Below are positions 17,641-42,871 of a stretch of DNA of 44,516 bases, piece by piece. The stretch comes from Cryobacterium fucosi. Lineage in GTDB: Bacteria; Actinomycetota; Actinomycetes; Actinomycetales; Microbacteriaceae. The translations under genes and the position numbers were made by a program. Within the stretch, counting starts at the first letter, position 1. Each line of letters begins with the position of its first letter. The stretch spans positions 1 through 44,516 of the forward strand of contig NZ_SOHH01000097.1 in NCBI RefSeq assembly GCF_004403515.1, given 5' to 3'. Under the pieces are notes generated by a model. The model was not told the origin of the DNA. It saw only the letters and a list, made by a program, of their open reading frames with translations, and searched no databases.

Positions 17641-17893
17641 TCGAGCCCGTCGAAGCCACGCCGCGCCGGTGATTGAGCCTGTCGAAATCGGCGCACCGGG
17701 TCTCGACAGGCTCGACCACCGGTGATTGAGCCTGTCGAAATCGGCGCCTCGGGTCTCGACGGGCTCGACCACCGTCGGTGATTGAGCCTGTCGAAATCGG
17801 CGCCCCGGGTCTCGACGGGCTCGACCACCGTCGGTGATTGAGCGTGTCGAAATCGGCGCCCCGGGTCTCGACGGGCTCGACCACCGTCGGTGG
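17638..17893. repeat. TCTCGACAGGCTCGACCACC-type repeat, block 2 (56-bp tandem)
   Basis: GGTGATTGAGCCTGTCGAAA recurs at 17668, 17721, 17777 and (with one change) 17833, alternating with GGGTCTCGACGGGCTCGACC. The last three units repeat with a period of exactly 56 bp. The block fills the gap between two convergent genes, so it may also terminate transcription in both directions. Confidence 0.9.
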
Positions 17894-20544: not shown

Positions 20545-20546
20545 GC

Positions 20547-22925: not shown

Positions 22926-22931
22926 TAAACT
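22926..22931 (+). promoter_or_regulatory. -10 box of a probable leaderless transcript
   Basis: TAAACT stands 7 nt before the cofC ATG at 22939, with no ribosome binding site. Confidence 0.55.
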
Positions 22932-22938
22932 TCGGGGC

Positions 22939-26984: not shown

Positions 26985-28013
26985 CTACTTGGTCTTCTGC
27001 TTGTCGAGCGCGGCCAGCTGGTCGATGGCCGACCCGGCGGCCTCCACGTTGCGGATGCCGGCCTCGGTGGACGCGAACGGCAGCACGATGTAGCGCTTGT
27101 CCTGCACGGCGGCGAGCCCCTGGGTTGCCGGGTTCGACTCGAGCGCGGCGATCTTCGACGCGGCCGTGTTCCAGGTGGCGTCGACCAGCACGATCACGCT
27201 CGGGTTCGCCTCGATCACCGATTCCCAGCCGACCGAGGTCCAGGTGTCGCGCACGTCGGCGAACACGTTGCTCAGGCCGGCGGCCGTCATGATCATCGCG
27301 GGCGAGCCGATCCCGGCCCCGACATAGGGACTGTCGGTGCCGCTGGAGTACCAGAGTGCCGTGGTCTTCGTGCCGGCGGGGGCAAGGTCGCCCAGCGCCT
27401 TCTTCTGCATCGTCACGAGCCGGTCGGCAGCATCCGCGCGGCCGAAGAGGGCGCCGGCCTCGGTGATCTCCGCGAACACGGAGTCGAAGGTCAGCGGGTC
27501 TGGCATGTAACGGGCGCCCTTGCATGCGGCGGGGGAGACGTAGCTGCCGATGCCGAGGCCGCCCAGCTGGCCGCGCTCGCCGACGCCGTCGGCCGTGAAG
27601 TTGGACTCCCAGCCGCCGTAGACGAAGTCGGGCGTGAGGGCCAGGACAGCCTCCTGGCCGGGCACGAAGTCGCTGACCACGTTGAGGCCCTTGCCCGCCT
27701 TGGCCAGGGATGCCGGCAGCGGGCCATCGAGGAACGCCGAGCCGACGATGCGGTCGCCGAGGCCGAGGGCGAGCAGCAGCTCCGTGGTCGACGATTTGAT
27801 GGTGACGATGCGCTCCGGCGCCTGGGCCACGGTCACCGGGGTGCCGCAGTTGTCGAGCGTGACAGGGTACCCCGCCGTTGCTCCCGCCGCGGTCGCCGTG
27901 CTACCCGCGGTCGGTGCCCCGCCGGCGGTGCCGCCGGCCCCGGCGCATCCGCTCAGCACCAACGCAACGGATGCCGCGCCTGCGACGAAAAGAAGAACAC
28001 TTCGACGGTTCAT
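26985..28013 (-). CDS. Putative F420-0 (or precursor) ABC transporter substrate-binding lipoprotein
   Basis: 342 residues. MNRRSVLLFVAGAASVALVLSGC is a clear lipoprotein signal with Cys at 23, followed by a Gly/Ala/Thr linker. The mature domain is of the TroA/BtuF/FepB fold (APERIVTIKSSTTELLLALGLGDRIVG, NVVSDFVPGQEAVLALTPDFVYGGW, ALWYSSGTDSPYVGAG, long helix, IVLPFASTEAG). GAGG lies 6 nt before the ATG. Gene order binding protein, permease, ATPase, cofD on one strand suggests one operon. F420-0 or the flavin Fo is the inferred ligand; heme or a siderophore is the alternative. Confidence 0.8.
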   Translation of the reverse strand: MNRRSVLLFVAGAASVALVLSGCAGAGGTAGGAPTAGSTATAAGATAGYPVTLDNCGTPVTVAQAPERIVTIKSSTTELLLALGLGDRIVGSAFLDGPLPASLAKAGKGLNVVSDFVPGQEAVLALTPDFVYGGWESNFTADGVGERGQLGGLGIGSYVSPAACKGARYMPDPLTFDSVFAEITEAGALFGRADAADRLVTMQKKALGDLAPAGTKTTALWYSSGTDSPYVGAGIGSPAMIMTAAGLSNVFADVRDTWTSVGWESVIEANPSVIVLVDATWNTAASKIAALESNPATQGLAAVQDKRYIVLPFASTEAGIRNVEAAGSAIDQLAALDKQKTK

Positions 28014-28048
28014 GAAGACCTCACGTTTCGAAACCGCCCACTCCCCTT

Positions 28049-28111
28049 CCGCGAGAGTGCACTTTCTGCCCTCACAGCGGTGCTGAAGGGGCGAGAACTG
28101 CACTCTCGCGG
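28049..28111. repeat. 63-bp palindrome (CCGCGAGAGTGCA type), copy 1
   Basis: Left arm starts CCGCGAGAGTGCA (28049) and right arm ends TGCACTCTCGCGG (28111), with mismatches in the inner stem. The loop contains TCACAGCG...CTGAA, as in the copy at 29314. It lies 36 bp upstream of the start of the binding-protein gene, in its leader or promoter. Confidence 0.9.
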
Positions 28112-29393: not shown

Positions 29394-30764
29394 TCAGGCC
29401 CAGCGGGCGGCGGGCTCCGACCCGACGGCCCCGGCGCTGCGGCGCAGCACGGCGGCCAGGGCCAGCGCCACCTCCGCCGGGTCCCCGATCAGGGCGCCGG
29501 CGGTCACCCGGATGAACGCCTCCGGGCGCACCTCGGCCTGGAACGGTGAGCCCCCGGCAACACGGATGCCCGAGGCCGCCAACTGCACGATGGCATCCCG
29601 TTCGTCGGCCACCGGGAGCCAGGTGTTGATCCCGTCCGCCTGCCCGGTCGGCAGTCCGAGCGCGGTCAGCGCCTCGGCCAGGGACTTCTGCCTGGCGAAG
29701 TAGATCCGCCGTGCCTCGCCGATCTGGGCGATGCTGTCACCGTGGGTAAGCAGGTCGTAGAGGATCGACTGCAGCATCCGGCTGGTCCAGCCGGGCCCGA
29801 GCATCCGTCTGGCCACGATCCGGTCCACGAGGGCCGTCGGCCCGCCGAGCGCGGCGATGCGCAGGTCGGGGCCGTGCGACTTCGAGTAGCTGCGCACGTG
29901 CAGCACCCGGCCGGTCAGCCAGCGGCCCAGGCTCACGTCCGGGGCCACGCTGATCTCGCCGGAATGGTCGTCCTCGATCACGACGGTCTGCGCGTTGCGC
30001 CTGTGCACGCTGAGCAGCCGGGCCAGCTCCTGGGCTCTGGCGGCCGGCATCGACACCCCGGTCGGGTTCTGCGCGCGCGGCTGCAGGATGACCGCTGCCG
30101 GCGACCGCGAGAGGGCCGCCGCGAAGGCGGAGGGAACGATGCCATGCTCGTCGACCGGCACCGGCAGGCGCTCGATGCCGAGCTGGTCGAGCAGGTCGAA
30201 GAACGGCGGAAAGCCCGGGTCCTCCACGATGACCCGGTCGCCGAACCGGGCCACCACGTCGAGACTGCGGGAGATGGCGTCGAGGGCGCCGTCGACGACC
30301 GTGATCGACTCGGCCGGGAACGGCCAGGACTCCCGCAGCACCGCGAGGAGCTCCGGGATCACCGGCAGCTCCTGGTACACCACGGTGGCGGCCCGTTGGG
30401 AGACCCGGGAGAGCGCCGGCGCGAGGTCGGGCAGGAGCTGGGGGTCGGGCGTGCCCCTCGACAGGTCGATCCTGGCACCGCGGTGATAGCCGGCCATCGA
30501 CTGGCTGCGTGTCGGCAGCCAGCGGGGAGCAGCGTCGAGAACGAAGGTGCCGCTACGCCCCCGGGAAACGATCAGCCCAACCGCGGAGAGCGCCTGCCAG
30601 GCGCGGCTGACCGTCGCCGGGCTCACCGCCAGGGCCGCGGCCAGCGCCCGCACGGTGGGCAGCCGGTCGCCCGGGGCGAGCCTGCCGGAGCTGATCAGGC
30701 GGCCGAGCGCGGCCGCGATCCCCTCCGGGGTGCGGTGCTCGACCTCGTCGATAACGGTTTGCAT
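29394..30764 (-). CDS. MocR-type (GntR/aminotransferase fusion) regulator
   Basis: 456 residues. Residues 1-75 form a GntR winged helix (TPEGIAAALGRLISSGRLAPGDRLPTVRALAAALAVSPATVSRAW), followed by a class I aminotransferase-like domain. That domain carries LSRGTPDPQLLPDL, ITVVDGALDAIS, VIVEDPGFPPF, PRAQNPTG, IEDDHSGE and the Schiff-base region VRSYSKSHGPDLRIAALGG with its Lys. MocR proteins bind PLP or a PLP-substrate adduct and usually control a divergent operon. Here that is the pyrimidine/hydantoin operon, which contains a PLP aminotransferase. ATG 30764 is chosen because it fits the GntR domain and has AAGGGGTC upstream. An extension to 30869 would cross the promoter region. Confidence 0.88.
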   Translation of the reverse strand: MQTVIDEVEHRTPEGIAAALGRLISSGRLAPGDRLPTVRALAAALAVSPATVSRAWQALSAVGLIVSRGRSGTFVLDAAPRWLPTRSQSMAGYHRGARIDLSRGTPDPQLLPDLAPALSRVSQRAATVVYQELPVIPELLAVLRESWPFPAESITVVDGALDAISRSLDVVARFGDRVIVEDPGFPPFFDLLDQLGIERLPVPVDEHGIVPSAFAAALSRSPAAVILQPRAQNPTGVSMPAARAQELARLLSVHRRNAQTVVIEDDHSGEISVAPDVSLGRWLTGRVLHVRSYSKSHGPDLRIAALGGPTALVDRIVARRMLGPGWTSRMLQSILYDLLTHGDSIAQIGEARRIYFARQKSLAEALTALGLPTGQADGINTWLPVADERDAIVQLAASGIRVAGGSPFQAEVRPEAFIRVTAGALIGDPAEVALALAAVLRRSAGAVGSEPAARWA

Positions 30765-30956
30765 GACCCCTTGCCTCCGGCTGGTCAGGGCGACAGGATG
30801 ATTAACGCGTGCGTCACACACAGAAACAGAACTGAAATGTTTACGTCGAAGAATAACAAACACGGACAACGCAGTCCGATTCGACTCAACTGATTCGGCG
30901 CTGCGTCTCCCGGCCCCTGGGCCAGCTCAGCGCCGAGCTCGATGTGGAGGCAAAGG
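30765..30956. promoter_or_regulatory. Divergent promoter region of mocR and the pyrimidine operon
   Basis: 192 bp with a markedly AT-rich core (30795-30870), the natural site for two promoters and MocR binding. Short direct repeats GATTCG (30879 and 30892) and several ACA/TGT words occur, but no single strong operator stands out. GGAGG at 30946-30950 is the ribosome binding site of the first operon gene. Confidence 0.55.
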
Positions 30957-31835
30957 ATGACCGGGGACACCAGCACGACCGACGGGCGCACACTCGTGCG
31001 GGCCGCCATCACCCAGACCGACTGGACCGGCGACCAGGAGTCGATGATCGTCAAGCACGAGGGGTTCGTGCGCACGGCGGCCGAGGCCGGCGTGCAGGTG
31101 ATCTGCTTCCAGGAGCTCTTCCACGGCCCGTACTTCGGCATCGTGCAGGACCCGAAGTATTACGACTACGCCCAGGCCGTTCCCGGCCCGCTGGTCGAAC
31201 GTTTCCAGAAGCTCGCCGCGGAGCACAAGATGGTGATCGTCCTCCCCGTCTACGAGGAGGAGCAGCCCGGCGTGCTCTACAACACCGCCGCGGTGATCGA
31301 CGCCGACGGGAGCTACCTCGGCAAGTACCGCAAGCACCACATCCCCCACCTGCCCCAGTTCTGGGAGAAGTTCTACTTCCGCCCCGGCAACGGCGACTAC
31401 CCGGTCTTCGACACCATGGTCGGTCGGATCGGCGTCTACATCTGCTACGACCGGCACTTCCCGGAGGGCTGGCGCGTGCTCGGCCTGAACGGCGCCGAGA
31501 TCGTCTTCAACCCCTCGGCCACCAAGCCAGGCCTCTCCAACCGGCTCTGGGAGCTCGAACAGCCGGCCGCCGCGGTCGCCAACCAGTACTACGTCGGCGC
31601 GAACAACCGCATCGGCACCGAGAGCCGCGAGTTCGGCGATGAGGCGGTCACCTTCTACGGCAGCTCCTACTTCGTCGACCCGCGCGGCAATTACGTCGGC
31701 GAGGTGGCGTCGACGGATGCCACGGAGATCGTGATCCGCGACCTCGATCTCGGCGTCATCCGGGAGGTGCGAAATTCGTGGCAGTTCTACCGCGACCGCC
31801 GCCCCGACTCCTACGAGCCGATCGTCGAACCCTGA
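30957..31835 (+). CDS. Beta-ureidopropionase (N-carbamoyl-beta-alanine amidohydrolase)
   Basis: 292 residues of the nitrilase superfamily with the Glu53 (FQELFHG), Lys126 (KYRKHHIPH) and Cys163 (YICYDRHFPEGWR) triad. The HHIPHLPQFWEKFYFRPG stretch and NNRIGTE are typical of beta-ureidopropionase/N-carbamoyl amino acid amidase. It releases CO2 and ammonia from N-carbamoyl-beta-alanine (uracil route) or N-carbamoyl-beta-aminoisobutyrate (thymine route). It is the first gene of the operon; the GGAGG-led ATG at 30957 is preferred to an upstream ATG at 30942. A 270-bp repeat block separates it from the dihydropyrimidinase gene. Exact substrate (ureido acid or carbamoyl alpha-amino acid) is inferred. 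Confidence 0.88.
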   Translation: MTGDTSTTDGRTLVRAAITQTDWTGDQESMIVKHEGFVRTAAEAGVQVICFQELFHGPYFGIVQDPKYYDYAQAVPGPLVERFQKLAAEHKMVIVLPVYEEEQPGVLYNTAAVIDADGSYLGKYRKHHIPHLPQFWEKFYFRPGNGDYPVFDTMVGRIGVYICYDRHFPEGWRVLGLNGAEIVFNPSATKPGLSNRLWELEQPAAAVANQYYVGANNRIGTESREFGDEAVTFYGSSYFVDPRGNYVGEVASTDATEIVIRDLDLGVIREVRNSWQFYRDRRPDSYEPIVEP

Positions 31836-31839
31836 GCCC

Positions 31840-32109
31840 GGTGATCGAGCTTGTCGAGATCCCGGTGATCGAGCGTGTCGGTGATCGAGCTTGTCGGTGA
31901 TCGAGCTTGTCGAGATCAGGGTCTCGACAGGCTCGACCACCGGGGCGAGGGTCTCGACAGGCTCGACCACCGGGGCGAGGGTCTCGACGGGCTCGACCAC
32001 CGGGCAAGGCTCGACCACCGGGGCGAGGGTCTCGACGGGCTCGACCACCGGGCGGGCTCGACCACCGGGCGGGCTCGACCACCGGTCGGTGATTGAGCCT
32101 GTCGAAATC
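31840..32109. repeat. TCTCGACAGGCTCGACCACC-type repeat, block 3, inside the operon
   Basis: Begins 5 nt after the amidohydrolase stop with several GGTGATCGAGCTTGTCG units and continues with two exact 30-bp units (GTCTCGACAGGCTCGACCAC plus CGGGGCGAGG at 31921 and 31951) and degenerate ones. It ends in GATTGAGCCTGTCGAAATC. The two orientations can fold into one long hairpin. This is the whole gap of about 318 bp before the next gene. Confidence 0.9.
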
Positions 32110-32153
32110 ATGAACCAAGTCGACATCACGAACATCCAGGACGGGAACGGGCG

Positions 32154-33599
32154 ATGAAAACCTTGATCAGAAACGGCACCGTGGTCAGCGCCACCGGCCG
32201 CGTGCAGGCAGACGTGCTCATCGACGGCGAGACGATCGCCGCGGTGCTGGCACCCGGGTCCCGGCTCCTCGGCGCCGACCTGGCCTCCGGCGTCGACCGG
32301 GTGATCGACGCGACCGGGAAGTACGTGATCCCGGGCGGGATCGACGCGCACACCCACATGCAGCTGCCGTTCGGCGGCACCGCGGCATCCGACACCTTCG
32401 AGACCGGCACCCGCGCGGCCGCGTGGGGCGGAACGACCACGATCATCGACTTCGCCGTGCAGAGCTACGGCCAGCGCGTCTTCGACGGCCTCGCCGCGTG
32501 GCACGAGAAGGCCGCAGGCAACTGCGCGATCGACTACGCCTTCCACCAGATCATCGGCGACCTCAATGCGGACTCCCTCCAGGCGATGGACGGGCTGCTC
32601 GCCGAGGGGGTCTCCAGCTTCAAGCTGTTCATGGCCTACCCGGGGGTCTTCTACTCCGATGACGCGCAGATCCTCAAGGCGATGCAGAAGTCGGCCGAAA
32701 CCGGGCTGATGACCATGATGCACGCCGAAAACGGACCGGCGATCGACGTGCTCGTCGGCCAGCTGCTCGCCGAAGGCAAGACCGACCCGTACTACCATGG
32801 CGTCGCCCGCGCCTGGCAGCTCGAGGAGGAGGCCACCCACCGGGCGATCATGCTCGCCGACCTCACCGGGGCGCCGCTCTACGTCGTGCACGTCAGTGCC
32901 AAACAGGCCGTCGCCCAGATCGCGGCCGCCCGGGGCACGGGCCAGAACGTCTTCGGCGAGACCTGCCCGCAATACCTCTACCTCTCGCTCGAGGAGAACC
33001 TCGGCGCCCCCGGCTTCGAGGGCGCCAAATGGGTGTGCTCCACCCCGCTGCGCTCCCGAGCCGAAGGGCACCAGGACCACCTCTGGCAGAGCCTGCGCAC
33101 CAACGACCTGCAACTGGTCTCCACCGACCACTGCCCGTTCTGCATGAAGGGCCAGAAGGACCTGGGCCTCGGCGACTTCTCCAAGATCCCGAACGGGATC
33201 GGCTCGGTCGAGCACCGCCTCGACCTGCTCTACCAGGGCGTGGTCACCGGCCGGATCTCACTCGAACGCTGGGTCGAGATCACCTCCACCACGCCGGCAC
33301 GCATGTTCGGCCTCTACGGGAAGAAAGGCGTGATCCAGCCCGGAGCGGATGCCGACATCGTCGTCTACGACCCTGACGGCCACACGTCCATCGGCTACGG
33401 CACCGACGAGTTCGGCGAGCCGACCGGGCGCAGCCACCACATGAACATGGACCATTCGGCCTGGGAGGGCTACGAGATCGACGGTCACGTCGACGTCGTG
33501 CTCTCCCGCGGCAAGGTCGTCATCGAGGGCAACAGCTACCTCGGCGCCAAGGGTGACGGTCGGTTCGTCAAGCGCGGCCTGAGCCAGTACCTGATCTAG
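32154..33599 (+). CDS. Dihydropyrimidinase / hydantoinase
   Basis: 481 residues of the cyclic amidohydrolase family. Metal ligands are visible: His66 and His68 in DAHTHM, carboxylated Lys157 in SFKLFMAYPG, later His in MMHAENG and VVHVSAKQA, and Asp in STDHCPF. GGIDAHTH, GTTTIIDFAVQ and FGETCPQYL are characteristic. It opens the ring of dihydrouracil, dihydrothymine or a 5-substituted hydantoin to the N-carbamoyl amino acid, the substrate of the amidohydrolase upstream. Homology alone cannot separate the two substrates; the beta-alanine-type aminotransferase downstream favours dihydropyrimidines. It precedes the LLM gene by 10 nt. Confidence 0.92.
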   Translation: MKTLIRNGTVVSATGRVQADVLIDGETIAAVLAPGSRLLGADLASGVDRVIDATGKYVIPGGIDAHTHMQLPFGGTAASDTFETGTRAAAWGGTTTIIDFAVQSYGQRVFDGLAAWHEKAAGNCAIDYAFHQIIGDLNADSLQAMDGLLAEGVSSFKLFMAYPGVFYSDDAQILKAMQKSAETGLMTMMHAENGPAIDVLVGQLLAEGKTDPYYHGVARAWQLEEEATHRAIMLADLTGAPLYVVHVSAKQAVAQIAAARGTGQNVFGETCPQYLYLSLEENLGAPGFEGAKWVCSTPLRSRAEGHQDHLWQSLRTNDLQLVSTDHCPFCMKGQKDLGLGDFSKIPNGIGSVEHRLDLLYQGVVTGRISLERWVEITSTTPARMFGLYGKKGVIQPGADADIVVYDPDGHTSIGYGTDEFGEPTGRSHHMNMDHSAWEGYEIDGHVDVVLSRGKVVIEGNSYLGAKGDGRFVKRGLSQYLI

Positions 33600-33609
33600 G
33601 GCGGACCAA

Positions 33610-34626
33610 ATGGACTTCGGAGCAGTACTCCAGACCAACCCGCCGTCGGCGCGCGTCGTGCAGCTCGCCCAGCTCGCCGAGGTGCACGGCTTCAGCCACG
33701 TCTGGACCTTCGACTCGCATCTGCTCTGGCAGGAGCCGTATGTGATCCACAGCCGTATCCTCGCCGAGACCCGCAAGATCGTGGTCGGGCCGATGGTCAC
33801 CAACCCGGCCACCAGGGACTGGACCGTGACGGCGTCGACCTTCGCCACCCTGAACGAGATGTACGGCAACCGCACCATCTGCGGCATCGGCCGCGGCGAC
33901 TCCGCGGTGCGGGTCACCAACGGGGCGCCCACCACCCTGAAGACGTTGCGCGAATCGATCCACGTCATCCGGGAGCTGGCCAATTCCCGCGCGGTCCTGC
34001 ACAACGGCGCCACCCTCCGGTTCCCGTGGAGCACGGGCTCCAGCCTCGAGGTGTGGGTGGCGGCCTACGGCCCGCTCGCGCTCAAGCTTGCCGGCGAGGT
34101 CGGCGACGGCTTCATCCTGCAGATGGCCGACCTCGACGTGGCCGAATGGATGATCGGCACGGTGCGGGATGCCGCCGCGAACGTGGGACGCGACCCGGCG
34201 TCGATCTCCATCTGCGTCGCAGCGCCGATGTACATCGGCGACGACTGGGAGCACATGCGTAACCAATGCCGGTGGTTCGGCGGAATGGTCGGCAACCACG
34301 TCGCCGACATCGTCGCGAAGTACGGCACCGAGTCCCTCGTGCCCAAGGCCCTCACCGACTACATCGCCGGCCGAAGCGGCTACGACTACAACCAGCACGG
34401 CCGCGCCGGCAACACGCACGCCGACTTCGTGCCGGACGAGATCGTGGACCGGTTCTGCCTCCTCGGAACCTCGAAGGACCACATCGTGAAGCTGCAGGCC
34501 CTCAAGGAACTCGGGGTCGACCAGTTCGCCGGCTACCTCCAGCACGACAACAAGGAGGAGACCCTGCGCGTCTACGGCGAGACCGTGATCCCCGCTCTCA
34601 CCGACCCGATCGTGGCGAAGCTGTGA
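33610..34626 (+). CDS. F420-type LLM oxidoreductase of the pyrimidine operon
   Basis: 338 residues, a luciferase-like (beta/alpha)8 barrel close to methylene-tetrahydromethanopterin reductase and the CPS_4043-type family. Seen are MDFGAVLQTNPP, VWTFDSHLLWQEPYVI, GPMVTNPATRDWTVTASTFATLNEMYG, CGIGRGDSAVR, VWVAAYGPLALKLAGEVGDGFI and the C-terminal LGTSKDHIVKL. It should bind F420 (or FMN) and transfer hydride. It lies between dihydropyrimidinase and the importer, overlapping the permease by 4 nt, while no dihydropyrimidine dehydrogenase is in the operon. Reduction of uracil/thymine with F420H2 is my inference. A RutA-like ring oxygenase role is less likely, since dihydropyrimidinase would then be pointless. 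Confidence 0.85.
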   Translation: MDFGAVLQTNPPSARVVQLAQLAEVHGFSHVWTFDSHLLWQEPYVIHSRILAETRKIVVGPMVTNPATRDWTVTASTFATLNEMYGNRTICGIGRGDSAVRVTNGAPTTLKTLRESIHVIRELANSRAVLHNGATLRFPWSTGSSLEVWVAAYGPLALKLAGEVGDGFILQMADLDVAEWMIGTVRDAAANVGRDPASISICVAAPMYIGDDWEHMRNQCRWFGGMVGNHVADIVAKYGTESLVPKALTDYIAGRSGYDYNQHGRAGNTHADFVPDEIVDRFCLLGTSKDHIVKLQALKELGVDQFAGYLQHDNKEETLRVYGETVIPALTDPIVAKL

Positions 34627-35528
34627 CCACGGCCGTCCCCGCCCGTTCCCGCCGCGGCCCGCTCCCCGCGCGCCGGCTTGTCGTCGGCGCGCTCGGCCTG
34701 GTGCTGCTCGCCGGGATCTGGGAGCTGTACAAGCTGCTCGGCCCGGCGGGCGGCGTCGTGCTCGCCGGGGTCACCGTGCTGCCCCGCACCAGCGACCTGG
34801 CCATGCCGCACCTCTGGGTGATGGCCGGGCGCGCGCTCGAACCGGTCACCGGCGCCGGCGGCGCCGTGCCGCTCTGGCGGGCCGTTCTCGACGCCTCCCT
34901 GTTCACCCTCGGCATCTCCACGGTGGGCTGGCTCGTCGGCGTCACCGTCGGCCTCGCGCTCGCGCTCCTGATGCAGCGGTTCCGGCTGGCCGAGGCGGCC
35001 GTGCTGCCCTGGATCATCCTCAGCCAGACCGTTCCGCTGATCGCCCTGGCCCCGCTCGTACGGCGCTGGGGGGCCCAGATCCAGTTCGGCGCGTTCAGCT
35101 GGGAGAGCTGGATGTCGGTGGCCCTGATCGCCTCCTACCTCGCCTTCTTCCCGGTCTCGGTCGGCGCTCTCCGGGGCCTCGGCTCACCCGACGCCAACCA
35201 CGTCGACCTGATGCACTGCTATTCGGCCGGCTGGTGGAAGACCCTCTGGCGGCTGCGGCTGCCGGCGAGCGTCGGCTACCTGTTGCCCGCGTTGCGCCTC
35301 GCCGCGGCCAGCGCCGTGATCGGCAGCGTCGTCGCCGAGGTGTCGATCGGGCTGCGCGGCGGCATCGGCAGACTGATCGTCGAATACGCCGGCGCGGCCG
35401 GCGGCGACCCAGGCAAACCCTGGGCGCCGATCTTCGGCTCGGTGCTGGTCGGGCTCGTCGCCGCCGGGTTCGTCGGGCTGATCGGGCGGGGCCTCCGCCG
35501 GTTCCGGCGCGGGGAGGTCGCGGCGTGA
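34623..35528 (+). CDS. ABC transporter permease, NitT/TauT type (first subunit)
   Basis: 301 residues with about six membrane helices of the BPD_transp_1 fold. The coupling region reads LMHCYSAGWWKTLWRLRLPASVGYLLPALRLAAASAVIGSVVAE, near residue 200. The GTG start overlaps the LLM stop by 4 nt (GTGA) and the end overlaps the ATPase gene in the same way, so translation is coupled. With the second permease at 36394 it should form a heterodimer that imports the pyrimidine or hydantoin substrate. Related systems carry pyrimidine precursors, riboflavin, nitrate or sulfonates. Confidence 0.85.
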   Translation: MTTAVPARSRRGPLPARRLVVGALGLVLLAGIWELYKLLGPAGGVVLAGVTVLPRTSDLAMPHLWVMAGRALEPVTGAGGAVPLWRAVLDASLFTLGISTVGWLVGVTVGLALALLMQRFRLAEAAVLPWIILSQTVPLIALAPLVRRWGAQIQFGAFSWESWMSVALIASYLAFFPVSVGALRGLGSPDANHVDLMHCYSAGWWKTLWRLRLPASVGYLLPALRLAAASAVIGSVVAEVSIGLRGGIGRLIVEYAGAAGGDPGKPWAPIFGSVLVGLVAAGFVGLIGRGLRRFRRGEVAA

Positions 35529-36397
35529 GCGGGCTGGGACGGAATGCGACGCCAGACGTGAACGCCGGTCCGGTGCCCGGCGCGGGGGCCGCGAGCCTGG
35601 CCGTGGACGTGCGCGGGGTGAGCCGCGTGTTCGCCGGCCGGAAGGGGGCATCCGTCACGGCCCTCGACGATGTCAGCCTCACCGTGGCGCCGGGCGAATT
35701 CGTCTCGCTGATCGGGCCGAGCGGCTGCGGCAAGAGCACCCTGCTGCGGCTGATCGCCGACCTCGACACCCCGACCACCGGCGAGATCCGGGTCTTCGGC
35801 AAACCGGCCAGGCAGGCCAGGATCGACCAGGACTACGGCATCGCCTTCCAGCAGGCCGGGCTGCTGCCCTGGCGCACCGTCACCGGCAACATCGAGCTGC
35901 CGCTCGAACTGCACGGCGCCGGACGGGCGGCCCGTCGCGCCCGCGCGGCCGAGCTGATCGAGCTGGTCGGGCTGTCGGAGTTCGCCGGCCACTACCCCGA
36001 CCAGCTCTCCGGCGGCATGCAGCAGCGGGTGGCGATCGCCCGGTCGCTGGCGGAGAGCCCGAGCCTGCTGCTGATGGACGAACCGTTCGGCGCGCTCGAC
36101 GAGATGACCCGGGAGCGGATGCAGAACGAACTCGTCCGGATCTGCGGCGAAACGAGCGCCGCCGTGGTCTTCGTCACCCACTCCATCCCCGAGGCCGTCT
36201 TCCTCTCCAACCGGGTCGTCGTGCTGGAGCCGCGGCCGGGACGCATCCGGGATGTGCTCCGGGTCGGGCTCGGCAACCCGGGGGAGCGCGGCGAGACCCT
36301 GCGCGAGGACGAGGAGTTCTTCCGCGCGGTGAGCCAGGTGCGCGAGCTGCTGCACGGAGAGGCCCCGGCCGGGGCCAGGGGGGCCGCGACCCAATGA
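35525..36397 (+). CDS. ABC transporter ATP-binding protein, NitT/TauT type
   Basis: 290 residues. Walker A LIGPSGCGKSTLLRL is near residue 67, Q-loop FQQAGLLPWRTV, signature QLSGGMQQRVAIARSL, Walker B LLLMDEPFGALDEMTRE, and switch His in VTHSIPEAVFLSNRV. The PFGALDE and THxxxEA patterns are typical of nitrate/taurine/pyrimidine-type importers. The GTG start overlaps the first permease and the end overlaps the second (ATGA). Some 25 residues before the ABC domain are extra, so a later start is possible. Confidence 0.9.
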   Translation: MSGLGRNATPDVNAGPVPGAGAASLAVDVRGVSRVFAGRKGASVTALDDVSLTVAPGEFVSLIGPSGCGKSTLLRLIADLDTPTTGEIRVFGKPARQARIDQDYGIAFQQAGLLPWRTVTGNIELPLELHGAGRAARRARAAELIELVGLSEFAGHYPDQLSGGMQQRVAIARSLAESPSLLLMDEPFGALDEMTRERMQNELVRICGETSAAVVFVTHSIPEAVFLSNRVVVLEPRPGRIRDVLRVGLGNPGERGETLREDEEFFRAVSQVRELLHGEAPAGARGAATQ

Positions 36398-37203
36398 GCC
36401 AGGCATCCGTTCGACCGGGCGGCGCCGGAGCGGCCGGCCAGGCGCCGACCGGGCCGGTCCGCACCGTGCTGGCGCCGATCCTGCTCGGACTCGCCGTGGT
36501 ACTGCTGTGGCAGGGGGCGGTCACCCTGCTGGCCATCAAACCGTTCATCCTGCCCGGGCCGCTCGCGATCGCCGACCAGTTCGGCGCGAACCTGCAGAAC
36601 GTGGCCGACGGGATGCTCGCCACCGGCCGGAACGCCCTCGTCGGGCTCCTGATCGGCACCGTGCTCGGGGTGCTGCTGGCCGTCCTCGCCGCGCTCGTAA
36701 GGCTGCTCGACGAGATGGCCGCGCCGATCGTGGCTGCCATCGCGGTCGTGCCGATCGTGGCGCTCGCCCCGGTGCTCTACACGATGTACGGCGCCGGCGC
36801 CGAGACCGCCCGGCAGTTCGTGGCGGCGCTCGCCGTATTCGTGCCCGTGTACTTCAACACCCTCAAGGGGCTCCGTCAGGTGCGCCCGGTGCACCGCGAC
36901 CTGATGCGGTCGTATGCGGCCACGAGCTGGCAGGCCACCCGCACCGTGACCCTGCCGACCGCACTGCCGTTCGTCTTCACGGGCCTGCGGATCGCCTCCT
37001 CGCTTGCCGTCATCTCCGCCCTGATCGCCGAGTACTTCGGAGGCCCGGTCGGCGGCCTCGGCAAGTCGATCACGTCGTCGGCGTCGAGCAGCAACTACGG
37101 ACTGGCCTGGGCGTACGTGCTCGGCGGGGTCCTGCTCGGCCTCCTGTTCTATTCCGCAGCGCTCATCGTCGAGAAGCTCGTCAGCCGCCGGTCAGGCGGA
37201 TAG
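36394..37203 (+). CDS. ABC transporter permease, NitT/TauT type (second subunit)
   Basis: 269 residues with about six helices. FILPGPLAIADQFGANL near residue 50 and the coupling helix RSYAATSWQATRTVTLPTALPFVFTGLRIASSLAVISALIAEYFGG are typical of ThiX/SsuC/RibX-like permeases. It pairs with the product of 34623. The ATG overlaps the ATPase stop, and the binding-protein gene begins 84 nt later with its own GGAGG. Confidence 0.9.
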   Translation: MSQASVRPGGAGAAGQAPTGPVRTVLAPILLGLAVVLLWQGAVTLLAIKPFILPGPLAIADQFGANLQNVADGMLATGRNALVGLLIGTVLGVLLAVLAALVRLLDEMAAPIVAAIAVVPIVALAPVLYTMYGAGAETARQFVAALAVFVPVYFNTLKGLRQVRPVHRDLMRSYAATSWQATRTVTLPTALPFVFTGLRIASSLAVISALIAEYFGGPVGGLGKSITSSASSSNYGLAWAYVLGGVLLGLLFYSAALIVEKLVSRRSGG

Positions 37204-37287
37204 GCGTCCGCCGCGTGCGCGCGGCGGTCGATGCACCACGATGCACCATCCACAGCAGAGTCAGGCAACCACTTCACGGAGGTAGAC

Positions 37288-38439
37288 ATGAACCACAGCA
37301 CACGATGGTTGGGCGCGTTGGGCGCCCTCGCCGCCAGCAGCGCCCTCGTCCTCACCGGCTGCAGCACCGGGACCGCGTCGACCGGATCGACCTCGGGTCC
37401 CGGCGGCGACCTCGTTCCGATCACCCTGCAGCTGCAATGGGTCGCCCAGGCCCAGTTCGCCGGCTACTACGCGGCCGTCGACCAGGGCTTCTACGAGGAC
37501 GAGGGCCTCGATGTCACCATCGCCGAGGGTGCCGCGGACATCGTGCCGCAGGACGTCCTCGCGGCCGGCGACGCCGACTACGCCATTTCCTGGGTGCCCA
37601 AGGTGCTCGGCTCGATCGAGCAGGGCGCCAACATCACCGATGTCGCGCAGATCTTCGAACGCAGCGCCACCACCCAGATCTCCTTCAAGGACAAGGGCAT
37701 CACGTCGCCGGCCGACCTCACGGGCAAGAACGTCGGCAGCTGGGGCTACGGCAACGAATGGGAGCTCTTCGCCGGCATGCAGAAGAGCGGCGTGCAGGTG
37801 GGCGACATCAATCTCGTGCAGCAGGCCTTCGACATGAACGGGTTCCTCTCCGGGGACATCGACGCGGCCCAGGCCATGACCTACAACGAGTACGCCCAGG
37901 TGCTCGAGACCAGGAACCCGAAAACGGGCGAGCTCTACCAGCCGGCCGACCTCAACGTGATCGACTGGAACGACGAGGGCACGGCCAGGCTCCAGGATGC
38001 GATCTGGGCCGACGCCGACAAGCTCGCCTCCGACAAGGACTACGCCGCCAACACGGTCAAGTTCATCAAGGCGTCGATCAAGGGCTGGATCTACGCGGCA
38101 ACCGACCCGGACAAGGCCGCCGGAATCGTCACCGCGGCCGGTTCGCAGCTGCCCGCCGGCCACCAGCTCTGGATGACCAACGAGGTCAACAAGCTGATCT
38201 GGCCGTCCACGAACGGGGTCGGCCTGATCGATGCGGCCGCCTGGAAGAACACCGTCGACATCGCGATGAACACCAGGAACGAGACCGGCGCCACCATCAT
38301 CACCGCCGAACCGCCCACGACCGCGTACTCGAATGAGTACGTGCAGCAGGCGCTCGACGAGCTGAAGGCGGACGGCGTCGACGTGATGGGCGCAGACTGG
38401 AAGCCGAGCACGGTCACGCTCACCGAGGGCGGCAAGTAG
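37288..38439 (+). CDS. ABC transporter substrate-binding lipoprotein, NMT1/ThiY-like
   Basis: 383 residues. The start at 37288 has GGAGG at 5 nt. A signal peptide with lipobox LVLTGC places the anchoring Cys near residue 25. LQWVAQAQFAGYYAAVDQGFYEDEGLDVTI is the opening of NMT1/ThiY-family binding proteins, which capture thiamine precursors, riboflavin or pyrimidines. WGYGNEWELFAGM and the conserved Asn/Glu/Tyr positions (AMTYNEYAQV) line the ligand cleft in relatives. It probably captures the nitrogen heterocycle degraded by the operon. Confidence 0.9.
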   Translation: MNHSTRWLGALGALAASSALVLTGCSTGTASTGSTSGPGGDLVPITLQLQWVAQAQFAGYYAAVDQGFYEDEGLDVTIAEGAADIVPQDVLAAGDADYAISWVPKVLGSIEQGANITDVAQIFERSATTQISFKDKGITSPADLTGKNVGSWGYGNEWELFAGMQKSGVQVGDINLVQQAFDMNGFLSGDIDAAQAMTYNEYAQVLETRNPKTGELYQPADLNVIDWNDEGTARLQDAIWADADKLASDKDYAANTVKFIKASIKGWIYAATDPDKAAGIVTAAGSQLPAGHQLWMTNEVNKLIWPSTNGVGLIDAAAWKNTVDIAMNTRNETGATIITAEPPTTAYSNEYVQQALDELKADGVDVMGADWKPSTVTLTEGGK

Positions 38440-38560
38440 GCTCGCCCCACCGCTCCTCACTGCACAGGGCCGGGCGGTCAACCGGCCGCCCGGCCCCCGC
38501 GTCCCGAAACCTTCACTCCACGCATTTCCTTCACTCAACGCAGAGAAAGACACGATATTC

Positions 38561-39883
38561 GTGAATGACACCACCTCCGCCAGCCTGAACGACCCTGCCT
38601 ACGAGCTGGACCGGGCCTACGTCTTCCACTCCTGGTCGGCGCAGGCAGCCCTCACACCGCTCGTGATCGCGGGCGGCCAGGGCTCCCGGGTCTGGGACTA
38701 CGACGGGCGCAGCTACCTGGACTTCTCCAGTCAGCTCGTCAACGTGAACATCGGCCACCAGCATCCGGCCGTCACCCAGGCCATCATCGACCAGGCCGGC
38801 ACGCTCGCCACGGTCGCGCCGTCGGCCGCGAACCTGATGCGCGGCGAGGCGGCCAAACGCATCGTCGACCGCGCCCCTGCCCGCTTCAACAAGGTCTTCT
38901 TCACCAACGGCGGGGCGGATGCGATCGAGAACGCGATCCGGCTGGCCCGGCTGCACACCGGGCGGGACAAGGTGCTCTCCAGCTACCGCTCCTACCACGG
39001 CAACACCGGGGCGGCGATCGTCGCGACCGGCGACTGGCGGCGCATCCCGAACGAATTCGCGCGCGGCCACGTTCACTTCTTCGGCCCGTACCTCTACCGC
39101 AGCGAGTTCTGGGCGACGACGCCCGAGCAGGAGTCGGAGCGGGCGCTGCGCCACCTCGAGCGCGTGATCCAGAGCGAGGGGCCGACCACGATCGCGGCCG
39201 TGCTGCTCGAATCGATCCCCGGCACGGCCGGGGTGCTCGTGCCGCCGCCCGGCTACCTCGCCGGGGTGCGCGCGCTCTGCGACCGCTACGGGATCCTGCT
39301 GATCCTCGACGAGGTGATGGCCGGCTTCGGGCGCACCGGGCGGTGGTTCGCCTTCGAAGGCTACGACGTGACCCCCGACCTGATCGCCTTCGCCAAGGGC
39401 GTCAACTCCGGCTACGTGCCCACCGGCGGCGTGATCATCTCCGAGTCGATCGCGAACGACTTCGAGACCACGGTCTTCCCCGGCGGACTCACCTACAGCG
39501 GGCATCCGCTGGCGATGGCGTCCATCGTGGCCGCCCTCGACGCGATGGAGAACGAGGGCATCGTCGCCAACGCCGCCAGGATCGGACGAGACCGGCTCGC
39601 GCCCGGCCTCGCTGCGCTGCAGGAGAAACACCAGATCATCGGCGAGGTGCGCGGCGAGGGCGTGTTCTGGGCGCTGGAACTCGTCGCCGACCAGGGCACC
39701 CGCGCGCCGCTCAGCGGCGTCGTGATGGGCCGGATCAAGACCGAGCTCCTCGCCCGCAATCTCCTGCCCTTCCTCGCAGACAACCGGATCCACGTCGTGC
39801 CGCCCTGCGTGGTCACCGACGACGAGGTCGCCGAGGCGCTCGCCATCTACGACGAGGTCCTCGGCCTCGACCTCCTTGCCTGA
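38561..39883 (+). CDS. Class III aminotransferase, beta-alanine/beta-aminoisobutyrate type
   Basis: 440 residues of the omega-amino acid:pyruvate aminotransferase family. FTNGGADAIENAIRLAR near 117, SYHGNTGAAI near 142, LDEVMAGFGRTG near 250 and the PLP lysine Lys279 in AFAKGVNSGYVPTGG are present, then TYSGHPLAMAS. It should convert beta-alanine (from uracil) to malonate semialdehyde, or beta-aminoisobutyrate to methylmalonate semialdehyde. The start is a GTG; an ATG 4 nt further is out of frame. There is only a weak AGAGAAAGA upstream. Place in the operon between the importer and the semialdehyde dehydrogenase fits this order of reactions. Confidence 0.9.
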   Translation: MNDTTSASLNDPAYELDRAYVFHSWSAQAALTPLVIAGGQGSRVWDYDGRSYLDFSSQLVNVNIGHQHPAVTQAIIDQAGTLATVAPSAANLMRGEAAKRIVDRAPARFNKVFFTNGGADAIENAIRLARLHTGRDKVLSSYRSYHGNTGAAIVATGDWRRIPNEFARGHVHFFGPYLYRSEFWATTPEQESERALRHLERVIQSEGPTTIAAVLLESIPGTAGVLVPPPGYLAGVRALCDRYGILLILDEVMAGFGRTGRWFAFEGYDVTPDLIAFAKGVNSGYVPTGGVIISESIANDFETTVFPGGLTYSGHPLAMASIVAALDAMENEGIVANAARIGRDRLAPGLAALQEKHQIIGEVRGEGVFWALELVADQGTRAPLSGVVMGRIKTELLARNLLPFLADNRIHVVPPCVVTDDEVAEALAIYDEVLGLDLLA

Positions 39884-39888
39884 CCGGG

Positions 39889-40053
39889 ATCTCGACAGGC
39901 TCGATCACCGACAGGCTCGAGCCCCCCCGGTGGTCGAGCCCCCGGTGGTCGAGCCCCGCCGGTGGTCGAGCCCCGCCGGTGGTCGAGCCCGTCGAGACCA
40001 ACCCCCGACGCGTCCGATCGCTGTCCTCCCGGTGGTCGAGCCTGTCGAGACCA
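39889..40053. repeat. TCTCGACAGGCTCGACCACC-type repeat, block 4, inside the operon
   Basis: Starts 6 nt after the aminotransferase stop with ATCTCGACAGGCTCGATCACC. It then carries several CGGTGGTCGAGCCCC units in the opposite orientation and ends in GTCGAGCCTGTCGAGACC. It fills most of the gap before the dehydrogenase gene and can fold into stem-loops. Confidence 0.88.
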
Positions 40054-40106
40054 ACCCCCGACACCCCTGACCCCACCAATCCCTCGACGAAGAGAAACGA
40101 AGAACA

Positions 40107-41606
40107 ATGACTGATCTACCCGTAATCACCCACTGGATCGACGGGGCGCCGTTCGACGGCAGCTCCACCCGCACCGCGCCCGTCTTCAACCCGGCCCTTG
40201 GCGTCGTCGCCAGGAACGTGCGCCTGGCCGGCACCGGCGACGTCGACACCGCCGTCGCCTCGGCGCAGGCCGCCTACCCTGCGTGGCGGGACACGTCCCA
40301 GGCCAGGCGCCAGAGCGTCATGTTCAGCTTCCGCGAGCTGCTCAACGCGCGCAAGGGCGAGCTGGCCGACATCCTCACCGCCGAGCATGGCAAGGTGACC
40401 TCGGATGCCCTCGGCGAGATCGCGCGCGGCCTCGAGGTCGTCGAGTTCGCCCTCGGCATGCCGCACCTGACCAAGGGCGAGTACTCGGAGAACGTGTCGA
40501 CCGGCGTTGACGTCTACACGCTGCGCCAGCCGCTCGGCGTGGTGGGCATCATCAGCCCGTTCAACTTCCCGGCGATGGTGCCGCTGTGGTTCTTCCCGAT
40601 CGCGATCGCGGCGGGCAACACCGTGGTGCTCAAACCGAGCGAGAAGGACCCGTCGGCGTCGAACTGGATGGCCGCCCTGATGACCGAGGCCGGCCTGCCC
40701 GCCGGCGTGCTCAACGTCGTGCACGGGGACAAGGAAGCGGTCGACGCCCTGCTCGTGCACCCCGACGTGCAGGCGATCTCCTTCGTCGGCTCCACTCCGA
40801 TCGCGAAATACATCTACGAGACGGCGGCGCACCACGGCAAGCGCGTCCAGGCCCTCGGCGGCGCCAAGAACCACATGCTCGTGCTGCCGGATGCCGATCT
40901 CGACCTGGCGGCGGATGCCGCCGTCAACGCAGGCTTCGGCTCGGCCGGTGAGCGGTGCATGGCGATCAGTGTCGTGGTGGCCGTCGAACCGGTCGCCGAC
41001 GAACTGGTCGCGAAGATCACCGAACGGCTCACGGGGCTCAAGGTCGGTGATGGCATGCGCGGCTGCGACATGGGGCCGCTGATCACGAAGGCTCACCGGG
41101 ACAAGGTCGCCTCCTACATCGAGGTGGCCCGCACCGACGGGGCCGAGGTGGTCGTGGACGGGCGCGGCATCGAGGTGGACGGTGACGCATCCGGTTTCTG
41201 GCTCGGCCCGACCCTGTTCGACCGGGTCACAACCTCCTCGGCCGTGTACCTCGACGAGATCTTCGGCCCGGTGCTGTCGATCGTGCGGGTCGGCAGCTAC
41301 ACGGAGGGGCTCACCCTGATCAACCGCAGCCGCTACGGCAATGGCACCGCGATCTTCACCAACGACGGCGGCGCTGCCCGGCGTTTCCAGAACGAGGTGC
41401 AGGTCGGGATGGTCGGCATCAACGTGCCGATCCCGGTGCCCGTGGCGTACCACTCGTTCGGCGGCTGGAAGGACTCCCTCTTCGGCGACGCGAAGGCGTA
41501 CGGCCCGGCCGGGATCGCCTTCTACACCCGGGAAAAGGCCATCACCAGCCGCTGGCTCGATCCCAGCCATGGAGGCATCAACCTCGGCTTCCCCCACAAC
41601 GCCTAG
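40107..41606 (+). CDS. mmsA: CoA-acylating (methyl)malonate-semialdehyde dehydrogenase
   Basis: 499 residues of the aldehyde dehydrogenase superfamily, MmsA type: HWIDGAPFDGSS at the start, ISPFNFPAMVPLWFFPIAIAAGNTVVLKPSEKDPS around 150-180, GSTPIAKYIYETAAHHGKRVQALGGAKNHM, and the nucleophile Cys284 in GERCMAISV. MmsA lacks the general-base Glu of other ALDHs and uses CoA; GGAKNH in place of the usual GGK/E motif agrees. It turns malonate or methylmalonate semialdehyde into acetyl- or propionyl-CoA with NAD and CO2 release. It is the last gene of the operon. Confidence 0.93.
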   Translation: MTDLPVITHWIDGAPFDGSSTRTAPVFNPALGVVARNVRLAGTGDVDTAVASAQAAYPAWRDTSQARRQSVMFSFRELLNARKGELADILTAEHGKVTSDALGEIARGLEVVEFALGMPHLTKGEYSENVSTGVDVYTLRQPLGVVGIISPFNFPAMVPLWFFPIAIAAGNTVVLKPSEKDPSASNWMAALMTEAGLPAGVLNVVHGDKEAVDALLVHPDVQAISFVGSTPIAKYIYETAAHHGKRVQALGGAKNHMLVLPDADLDLAADAAVNAGFGSAGERCMAISVVVAVEPVADELVAKITERLTGLKVGDGMRGCDMGPLITKAHRDKVASYIEVARTDGAEVVVDGRGIEVDGDASGFWLGPTLFDRVTTSSAVYLDEIFGPVLSIVRVGSYTEGLTLINRSRYGNGTAIFTNDGGAARRFQNEVQVGMVGINVPIPVPVAYHSFGGWKDSLFGDAKAYGPAGIAFYTREKAITSRWLDPSHGGINLGFPHNA

Positions 41607-41673: not shown

Positions 41674-42612
41674 TTAGGGGGAGGAGGGTGGGGCGGTCGA
41701 GGTGTGCTCGGCCTGCACCCGAGCGGCCTCGGCGCGCAGCACGTCGACGACCGTGCGCACCGCCAGGCGTTCGGCCCGATCGGGGCGCATCAGCGCCACG
41801 ATCTGCCGTTCGGCATCGACCCCTCGCAGCGGCTTGAGCGTGAGCCTGCCCGGCTGGTCGCCGCCCCAGGTGTAGCGCGGCACGAGCGCGATGCCGAGCC
41901 CGGCCATCACGAACGCCTCGATCAGGCGCATGTCCGCGAACCGCTGCGCCACCAACGCCCGGCCGCCGCCCTGCTGCTCGATCTGGTGCAGGATGCGTTC
42001 GAACGGGTAGCCGTCCGGCGCGCCGATCCAGGTCTCGCCGACCACGTCGGCCGGTCCGATCCAGGCCCGGGAGGCCAGGCGGTGGTCTGCCGGCAGGCCC
42101 ACGTCGAGCGGCTCGGTCATCAGCGGGACCACGGTGAGTCCCCGCCCGCCCCAGGGCAGTTGTCCGCGCAGGCTGTAGGCGAGCACGATGTCGAAGTCGG
42201 CGGTGAGGGCCGGGAAGTCGCTGAGCTCCGGGTCCTTGTCGGTGCAGTTCACAATCAGCCCGGGTACGGCCGCGATCTGCTGCAGCGCCCCCGGCAGCAG
42301 CATCTCGCCCGCGGTCGGGAAGGTGACCAGGCTCACCTCGCCGGTGGCGTGGTGCCGGAACTCGTCCCACACCGCGTTCGCCCGGGCGAGCGCGACCGCG
42401 ACATCGGTCGCGCTGCGGGCCAGCGCGCGCCCGGCATCCGTCAGGATGAGGCCGCGGCCGCTGCGCTCGGTGAGCGGCAGGCCGGCTTCCCGTTCGAGCA
42501 CCTTGAGCTGCTGCGAGACGGCCGAGGGCGTACGGTGCGTTGCCCGCGCGACCTCAGTGATGCTGCGGCGTTCGGCCAATTCCCTGAGCAATTCGAGCCT
42601 CTGCACATCCAT
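41674..42612 (-). CDS. LysR-family transcriptional regulator
   Basis: 312 residues. The winged HTH is at residues 1-60 (MDVQRLELLRELAERRSITEVARATHRTPSAVSQQLKVLEREAGLPLTER), followed by the two-lobed effector domain (VSLVTFPTAGEMLLPGAL, FDIVLAYSLRG, MAGLGIALVPRYTW). It converges with mmsA and is divergent from a 40-residue membrane protein gene. A 25-bp dyad with LysR-type TGCA...TGCA symmetry lies just upstream. An N-terminal extension to 42780 would run through the dyad and is rejected. Its target could be itself, the small gene or the pyrimidine operon. Confidence 0.88.
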   Translation of the reverse strand: MDVQRLELLRELAERRSITEVARATHRTPSAVSQQLKVLEREAGLPLTERSGRGLILTDAGRALARSATDVAVALARANAVWDEFRHHATGEVSLVTFPTAGEMLLPGALQQIAAVPGLIVNCTDKDPELSDFPALTADFDIVLAYSLRGQLPWGGRGLTVVPLMTEPLDVGLPADHRLASRAWIGPADVVGETWIGAPDGYPFERILHQIEQQGGGRALVAQRFADMRLIEAFVMAGLGIALVPRYTWGGDQPGRLTLKPLRGVDAERQIVALMRPDRAERLAVRTVVDVLRAEAARVQAEHTSTAPPSSP

Positions 42613-42633
42613 GTAGCTAAGCTTCACACTTAT

Positions 42634-42658
42634 TGCAGAACAATGCGATTGTGCTGCA
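42634..42658. promoter_or_regulatory. Candidate LysR binding site
   Basis: TGCAGAACAAT (42634-42644), GCG, ATTGTGCTGCA (42648-42658) form a dyad with 10 of 11 bp matching. It lies 22 bp upstream of the lysR start in the divergent region, in the usual place for autoregulation. Confidence 0.65.
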
Positions 42659-42748
42659 CTGTTTGTCGTGGTCGAATTAACACGTCGAACTCGTGCAATG
42701 GTGCCTCCGTCTCCCCGACACAACCCCCCATTCACGAAAGGTACGACC

Positions 42749-42871
42749 GTGTTCGTTCTCCTCGCCGTTCTCGTTCTCATCGTTCTCTCCTCCGTTGCCG
42801 CCGTCGTCGTCGACGTGCAGAAGGACGGCTACCGCCGTCTGCCAGAGCGCAAGCTCGTTCGCATCTTCTGA
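42749..42871 (+). CDS. Small single-helix membrane protein, function unknown
   Basis: A 40-residue frame starting with GTG, with GAAAGG 7 nt upstream. Residues 2-22 are almost all Val, Leu, Ala, Ile (one membrane helix). The rest, DVQKDGYRRLPERKLVRIF, is basic and probably cytoplasmic. Similar tiny proteins are found beside LysR genes in related actinobacteria as far as I recall, with no known role. It is divergent from lysR and may be its target. Confidence 0.6.
   Translation: MFVLLAVLVLIVLSSVAAVVVDVQKDGYRRLPERKLVRIF

Follow-up and report, generated by a model that had tools for sequence, protein, structure and literature searches.

In the reductive pyrimidine degradation (Pyd) pathway the dihydropyrimidine dehydrogenases PydA/PreAT, which depend on NAD(P)H, and the ferredoxin-dependent clostridial PydAc stand ahead of dihydropyrimidinase and ureidopropionase, and the variants named in the available portion of PMC7332683 all belong to one iron-sulphur flavoprotein family. 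Here we describe an operon in a 44,516-nucleotide stretch of the Cryobacterium fucosi genome (contig NZ_SOHH01000097.1, our C74; the whole stretch is called the window) in which the same place is held by the gene for a luciferase-like monooxygenase (LLM) protein of family TIGR03842 (33610–34626, plus strand). PydA, PreAT and PydAc are FMN and iron-sulphur enzymes with a DHO_dh domain, whereas the window protein is an LLM with no such domain and with another predicted electron donor. We consider it probable that this protein works as a dihydropyrimidine dehydrogenase dependent on F420H2 and takes the part of PydA without being homologous to it.

In Chloroflexota a putative F420-dependent 'luciferase family' yanthine reductase has been proposed from gene neighbourhood (PMC12507026, in the part of the article available), and there too a PF00296 protein replaces another reductase in a reductive N-heterocycle pathway; its substrate, however, is purine-derived, the phylum is another, and the likeness to the window protein is one of description alone. 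According to the accessible part of PMC10714638, SSGG-03002/NpsU of the uridyl peptide antibiotics is a putative F420/FMN-dependent oxidoreductase that reduces the C5=C6 bond of the uracil moiety in vivo, its authors having seen no product in vitro. Its setting is biosynthetic, unlike the catabolic one of the window, and here again the comparison is by description, not by sequence. In the literature searched, with sources available in part and with subscription papers and bioRxiv outside it, we found no report of uracil breakdown that starts with an F420-dependent step.

The LLM protein and its relation to F420-dependent enzymes

The operon (29394–41606) comprises a divergent MocR regulator gene and then nine plus-strand genes in the order amidase, dihydropyrimidinase, TIGR03842 LLM protein, permease, ATPase, permease, NMT1-type substrate-binding protein (SBP), aminotransferase and MmsA. 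All the genes that a preliminary description of this DNA had named are present as open frames and in the order it gave, and between them they cover all steps of the Pyd pathway after the first, with the amidase short of an equivalog cut-off. The genome assembly amounts to 3.44 Mb in 122 contigs and is 99.99% complete.

Scores of NCBIfam profile models are written as bits/curated cut-off. The LLM protein matches TIGR03842 (F420_CPS_4043) over residues 2–330 with 583 bits against a cut-off of 295.45, Bac_luciferase is the only domain found in it, and it is 98% identical to its counterpart in C. algoritolerans (L044). In a structural comparison of its predicted fold the 15 top matches are all F420 enzymes, ranked above any FMN monooxygenase, and the modelled fold is closest to the F420-dependent members of the F420-dependent LLM hydride transferases.

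RutA, a pyrimidine monooxygenase, likewise has the LLM fold and acts on uracil, and the window protein might be an FMN-dependent monooxygenase that attacks the pyrimidine ring oxidatively in the RutA manner. Oxidative ring opening by the Rut pathway, however, needs no dihydropyrimidinase, BLAST shows no significant likeness between the protein and RutA, homologues of the protein are encoded next to F420 synthesis genes and npdG, and the F420 enzymes outrank any FMN monooxygenase in the structural matches. A RutA-like role is thus highly improbable.

A separate candidate was Mer itself (1z69, 1f07, 8qpl), which was excluded, as the protein scores below the Mer cut-offs (TIGR03555 127/349, PRK02271 130/276) and does not keep Mer Glu6 (mutated to Gln in 8qq8): at this position 117 of 118 aligned TIGR03842-type sequences carry V, T or C and the remaining one has a gap. 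Asp35, Ser36, Asn65, Arg95, Gln171, His230 and Tyr260 are invariant and may line the active site.

Pairing of TIGR03842 with dihydropyrimidinase across actinobacteria

Gene neighbourhoods were read in a close-range sample, the best 80 of 593 confirmed LLM matches in actinobacterial loci, and in a wider sample of 36 chosen LLM loci (seven from genomes of the class and 29 from genomes of the phylum), the flanks ending within 10 kb. In the best 80 of the 593 a dihydropyrimidinase gene stands beside the LLM gene in every case (median gap 29 bases) and an amidase gene in 78, the two misses (L058, L077) being short contigs, while PreA and PreT were found in none of the 80. The wider sample has dihydropyrimidinase (HydA) in 29 of the 36 loci and an amidase of the nitrilase or Zn type in 33, no PreA or PreT in any, and as transporter either an ABC importer, its SBP seen in 15 loci, or, in 8 loci, a symporter resembling NCS1.

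At the level of whole genomes TIGR03842 exceeds its cut-off in 32 of 148 genomes of the class and in 53 of 246 in the phylum sample. The dihydropyrimidinase model TIGR02033 is over its cut-off in 30 of the 32 LLM-carrying class genomes versus 4 of the 116 others; genome G074, in which it stays below, has a HydA piece at a contig end beside the LLM gene (L200). P values given in this work ignore shared ancestry. The survey called for in the preliminary description, of the co-occurrence of this LLM family with dihydropyrimidinase and F420 genes where PydA is missing, came out in favour of its reading: TIGR03842 tracks dihydropyrimidinase closely and no PreA is found. PreA is absent from genomes lacking the LLM as well, and the F420 link is weaker.

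Among the four genomes with dihydropyrimidinase and no TIGR03842 over cut-off, G016 has an independent variant, an operon with npdG (199/150), a different, Mer-like LLM (PRK02271 156 bits, below cut-off) and dihydropyrimidinase (512/393). This operon also encodes an aminotransferase, an aldehyde dehydrogenase, two amidases of the nitrilase type and an importer, the SBP of which shares 49% identity with that of the window. In the stretches read of the other three (G009, with a stretch of 7 kb, G031 and G068) neither LLM nor PreA was found. An operon of this kind is seen at L205 (5241–9230), in a genome without TIGR03842 over cut-off: npdG and dihydropyrimidinase are accompanied by an aminotransferase, an NMT1 importer and a Mer-like LLM that does not belong to TIGR03842. 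The setting may thus have been filled by another LLM linked to F420.

Some matches are split. In L082 the HydA match and the F420-0 SBP match are both broken in two, and the LLM match of G094 (C1:2193491–2194476) consists of two parts that lie in different frames; either decay or sequencing error would account for this.

Absence of PreA and the remaining DHO_dh proteins

The PreA model NF006183 has no match in the genome of the window at E ≤ 1e-30 and is over its cut-off in 0 of the 148 class genomes, while the Escherichia coli PreA used as positive control was detected (688 bits versus a cut-off of 335). The preliminary description had seen in the LLM protein the only oxidoreductase available for the first reduction, and the genome-wide search agrees with it in that no PydA/PreA homologue is over cut-off, the nearest scoring 98/335.

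A DHO_dh search of this genome gave three matches, namely a class 2 PyrD (TIGR01036 378/200), a DHOD-1B-like/PyrK-like pair on contig C68 (L002 1417–3311) separate from the class 2 PyrD, and a sub-cut-off match on C93; the last was rejected as a hidden PreA/PydA, its gene being read by eye as deoxyribose-phosphate aldolase. The DHOD-1B/PyrK pair is at most 42% identical to its matches in other class genomes and has no match at E ≤ 1e-40 in four genomes of the same family.

Since a class 2 PyrD is already present the pair is redundant for pyrimidine synthesis, and the DHO_dh domain is common to DHOD-1B and PydA, so that the pair might be the real dihydropyrimidine dehydrogenase and the LLM protein do something else. 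Yet the C68 protein scores as a dihydroorotate dehydrogenase (284/269) and far under the PreA cut-off (98/335), no catabolic gene was recognised nearby when the neighbourhood was read by eye, the LLM-carrying genomes G094, G117 and G138 of the same family are without a match at E ≤ 1e-40, and matches occur in 11 of 32 genomes with the LLM versus 62 of 116 without it. We regard this alternative as very unlikely.

Association with F420 synthesis genes on plasmids

The search outside Actinomycetota covered plasmid records. Plasmid homologues are 42% identical to the LLM protein of the window, and that of Leisingera scores 506/295 for TIGR03842. On plasmids of Leisingera caerulea and Paracoccus alcaliphilus the TIGR03842 gene comes directly after cofG, cofH, cofD, cofC, cofE and npdG, and CofD lies ∼2.1 kb from the LLM in all 11 Leisingera/Paracoccus plasmid records found. 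The divergent genes in Leisingera encode a transhydrogenase, an aminotransferase, a Zn amidase, a dihydropyrimidinase and an NCS1 symporter, which is, by its predicted gene products, the Pyd pathway lacking an adjacent PreAT. The LLM gene of Paracoccus is followed by an ABC importer, and the annotation of the 25 kb covered there includes no dihydropyrimidinase. Other CofD-bearing plasmids, for example from Sinorhizobium, gave no TIGR03842 match at E ≤ 1e-30, so F420 would have other uses there. Section 23 of a 2021 review (PMC8498797), in the portion available, has no F420H2-dependent reductase investigated in Alphaproteobacteria, and F420 only as traces in Paracoccus denitrificans.

A Caballeronia plasmid (L140, 7934–12991) carries a TIGR03842 piece adjoining genes for a Zn amidase, an alanine dehydrogenase and a transhydrogenase; the same strain has PreA on another plasmid.

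The preliminary description had assigned the first step to an F420-type LLM protein, and this assignment gains support from the way TIGR03842 tracks dihydropyrimidinase and follows an F420 synthesis operon on plasmids. These comparisons give good support to the reading of the operon as a known pathway in which the first enzyme is non-homologous and has another predicted electron donor.

Pathway genes, substrate and proposed route

The amidase gene (30942–31835, plus strand) encodes a nitrilase-type protein (CN_hydrolase 225 bits) that is probably a beta-ureidopropionase, although no equivalog cut-off is reached (TIGR03381 248/410). Its top Protein Data Bank (PDB) matches are Drosophila CG3027-PA (2vhh), which we take to be beta-alanine synthase, N-carbamoylputrescine amidohydrolase (5h8i) and beta-ureidopropionase (8pt4, 6ftq). 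The dihydropyrimidinase (32154–33599, plus strand; TIGR02033 543/393) has dihydropyrimidinases and D-hydantoinases as its top PDB matches. Downstream of the LLM gene lie plus-strand genes for an ABC permease (34623–35528; BPD_transp_1 63/26, no NCBIfam match at 1e-10), a taurine/nitrate-type ABC ATPase (35525–36397; PRK11248 219/357, below cut-off), a second ABC permease (36394–37203; BPD_transp_1 78 bits, with SaoP/SsuC/TauC-type models below cut-off) and an NMT1/THI5-type SBP (37285–38439; PF09084 127 bits), the top PDB match of which is an unnamed SBP (4nmy) and the next a formylaminopyrimidine binder (3ix1). The LLM stop and the permease start overlap in a GTGA at 34623–34626, as do the permease and ATPase genes at 35525–35528, and the translational coupling of the LLM gene to the importer claimed earlier therefore stands.

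The class III aminotransferase (38561–39883, plus strand; PRK06062 737/472, a subfamily model named 'hypothetical protein') is probably a beta-alanine/beta-aminoisobutyrate transaminase; its best PDB match is taurine:2-oxoglutarate aminotransferase (6jix), which fits a beta-amino acid substrate. It is followed by the CoA-acylating (methyl)malonate-semialdehyde dehydrogenase MmsA (40107–41606, plus strand; TIGR01722 681/448). The MocR-family regulator (29394–30827, minus strand), with a GntR head and an aminotransferase-like domain, is divergent to the operon and scores 266/573 for PRK15481, other MocR models also being below cut-off, and a LysR-family regulator assigned by domain search (41674–42780, minus strand) is convergent to the operon end.

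The intergenic regions of the window hold 13 copies (at most one mismatch) of the repeat GTCGAGCCTGTCGAGA, against 0.01 expected in shuffles, in four clusters at 15454–15517, 17701–17881, 31922–32045 and 39890–40050. Two of the clusters fall within the operon, one in the gap that separates the amidase gene from the dihydropyrimidinase gene and one in the gap ahead of MmsA, after the aminotransferase gene. The sole Rfam match in the window is a c-di-GMP-I riboswitch (1446–1519), just over the gathering score (37.6/35).

Two sets of neighbouring genes elsewhere bear on the substrate. In another family of the phylum, locus L175 has on one strand genes for a cytosine deaminase (566/483), an NCS1-like protein (23% identity), HydA, an aminotransferase, a Zn amidase, NCS1 and the LLM. 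Thalassospira has preA, with an oxidoreductase gene upstream of it that is presumably preT, in the vicinity of genes for MmsA, a nitrilase and an aminotransferase, the products of which are respectively 58, 52 and 29% identical to those of the window. The L175 cytosine deaminase and the Thalassospira preA neighbourhood favour uracil and thymine over hydantoins. E. coli CodA, CodB, Cdd, RihA and RutA and the PyrE of the window served as markers in a search of 124 loci together with the window, 125 sequences in all. CodA matched in one of the 124 loci (L175), CodB in one (L128, 26%), Cdd in one (L198), RutA in four at 24–29% (L060, L082, L085, L110), and RihA in the window alone (12463–13059, far from the operon). 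PyrE matched in 11 sequences including the window and is probably a mere neighbour.

Dihydropyrimidinases also open hydantoins, and the PDB names of the best matches agree with this. The operon might serve to degrade some other N-heterocycle (a modified pyrimidine, the pyrimidine of thiamine or a hydantoin with substituents, for example), with the LLM protein, whose gene overlaps that of the importer, performing a different reduction or oxidation. The importer SBP is of the NMT1/THI5 family, which includes the formylaminopyrimidine binder, and MmsA is found in just 28 of the best 80 of the 593 loci. On the other side, the aminotransferase and MmsA fit beta-amino acids, several loci keep LLM and HydA with an NCS1 symporter replacing the ABC importer, and one distant locus has the cytosine deaminase; the downstream genes and this deaminase favour pyrimidines. 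Another heterocycle is thus unlikely, and the hydantoin pathway is less likely than the pyrimidine pathway.

On the pyrimidine reading, the ABC importer would bring in uracil, thymine or a close relative, and the LLM enzyme would take a hydride from F420H2 and reduce the C5=C6 bond to give the dihydropyrimidine. Dihydropyrimidinase would open the ring and the nitrilase-type amidase take off the carbamoyl group, after which the aminotransferase and MmsA would convert beta-alanine or beta-aminoisobutyrate to acetyl- or propionyl-CoA. To restore F420H2 an F420-reducing dehydrogenase would be needed; here this might be the TIGR03557 LLM (see below), and in Leisingera, Paracoccus and the G016 operon it might be npdG.

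F420 supply

An F420 synthesis locus had been placed 1.4 kb beyond the regulator. The cof genes are indeed nearby, but the locus begins 1.3 kb past the MocR gene, one small plus-strand gene lies between, and a putative F420-0 ABC importer comes first. Its SBP (26985–28103, minus strand; TIGR03868 422/392) is followed by an ATPase and permease (24858–26851, minus strand; open reading frames classed by eye, starts not refined), cofD for 2-phospho-L-lactate transferase (23764–24861, minus strand; 342/257), cofC for the guanylyltransferase (22930–23730, plus strand; 131/105, start not refined) and cofE for F420-0:gamma-glutamyl ligase (20544–21482, plus strand; PRK13294 310/304, TIGR01916 235/181, start not refined). 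An LLM of the F420 glucose-6-phosphate dehydrogenase family (19543–20544, plus strand; TIGR03557 285/210) is a possible F420H2 source; it does not reach the equivalog cut-off for that dehydrogenase (219/420) and is also below that of the FMN-dependent TIGR03885 (318/399).

FO synthase cofG (TIGR03550) has no match at E ≤ 0.001 in the 122-contig assembly, CofH not having been searched separately. With no FO synthase found and cofC, cofD, cofE and a putative F420-0 importer present, the deazaflavin is probably scavenged and not made de novo; it would enter the cell as FO or F420-0, and CofC, CofD and CofE would complete the cofactor.

The same contrast appears in a survey of 54 genomes (53 with the LLM and G106 without it), a non-random set chosen for genus spread, of which 48 come from the close-range loci and six are class genomes. 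CofG is over cut-off in 21 and TIGR03868 in 29 of these, both in none and neither in four (G074, G185, G194 and G106), five CofG genomes with sub-cut-off TIGR03868-like matches (G138, G167, G182, G187, G191) being counted as importer-less. CofD is over cut-off in 43 of the 54; the other 11 comprise seven with the importer, one with CofG and three with neither. The seven importer genomes without CofD (such as G160, G161 and G162) suggest uptake of F420-0 or FO as a vitamin. As the name F420-0 transporter comes from the NCBIfam curators the import idea is theirs, while the exclusion pattern is observed here.

Points against an F420H2-dependent dihydropyrimidine dehydrogenase

Several observations weigh against the proposed role. 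As Mer Glu6 is not conserved, no catalytic residue can be transferred to the LLM protein. The other pathway genes are less constant than dihydropyrimidinase: in the best 80 of the 593 loci there are 58 with an aminotransferase, 28 with MmsA and 59 with an SBP or NCS1, and in the wider sample of 36 there are 23, 13 and 23, respectively. Seven of these 36 loci, some of them cut by contig or stretch ends, have no HydA match, and genome G029 has the LLM without a dihydropyrimidinase over cut-off. In none of the 148 class genomes, those lacking the LLM included, does PreA reach its cut-off, and genomes with the LLM are thus not special in being without it; for Leisingera and Paracoccus the view of PreA rests on plasmids, their chromosomes not having been searched for it. 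The DHOD-1B/PyrK pair in the C. fucosi genome could reduce a pyrimidine. As to the cofactor, CofG is found in 28 of 32 class genomes with the LLM versus 68 of 116 without it (p 0.003, uncorrected), a weaker link than that to dihydropyrimidinase, and three of the 53 LLM-carrying genomes (G074, which is 84% complete, G185 and G194) show no F420 route over cut-off.

Implications

On balance we lean, with some reserve, towards a wider reading of these gene neighbourhoods, in which TIGR03842 would be a further, non-homologous dihydropyrimidine dehydrogenase that draws on F420H2, is widespread in Actinomycetota and is plasmid-borne with its own cofactor operon in Alphaproteobacteria. Pyrimidine catabolism in many Microbacteriaceae would then depend on a deazaflavin taken from neighbouring organisms, with an F420-0/FO importer in place of FO synthase. 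The F420-driven role is directly testable with one purified protein. If true, it would account for the use of dihydropyrimidinase operons by actinobacteria that lack PreA, give a function to the large 'hypothetical equivalog' family TIGR03842, and provide one concrete use of F420 in Alphaproteobacteria.

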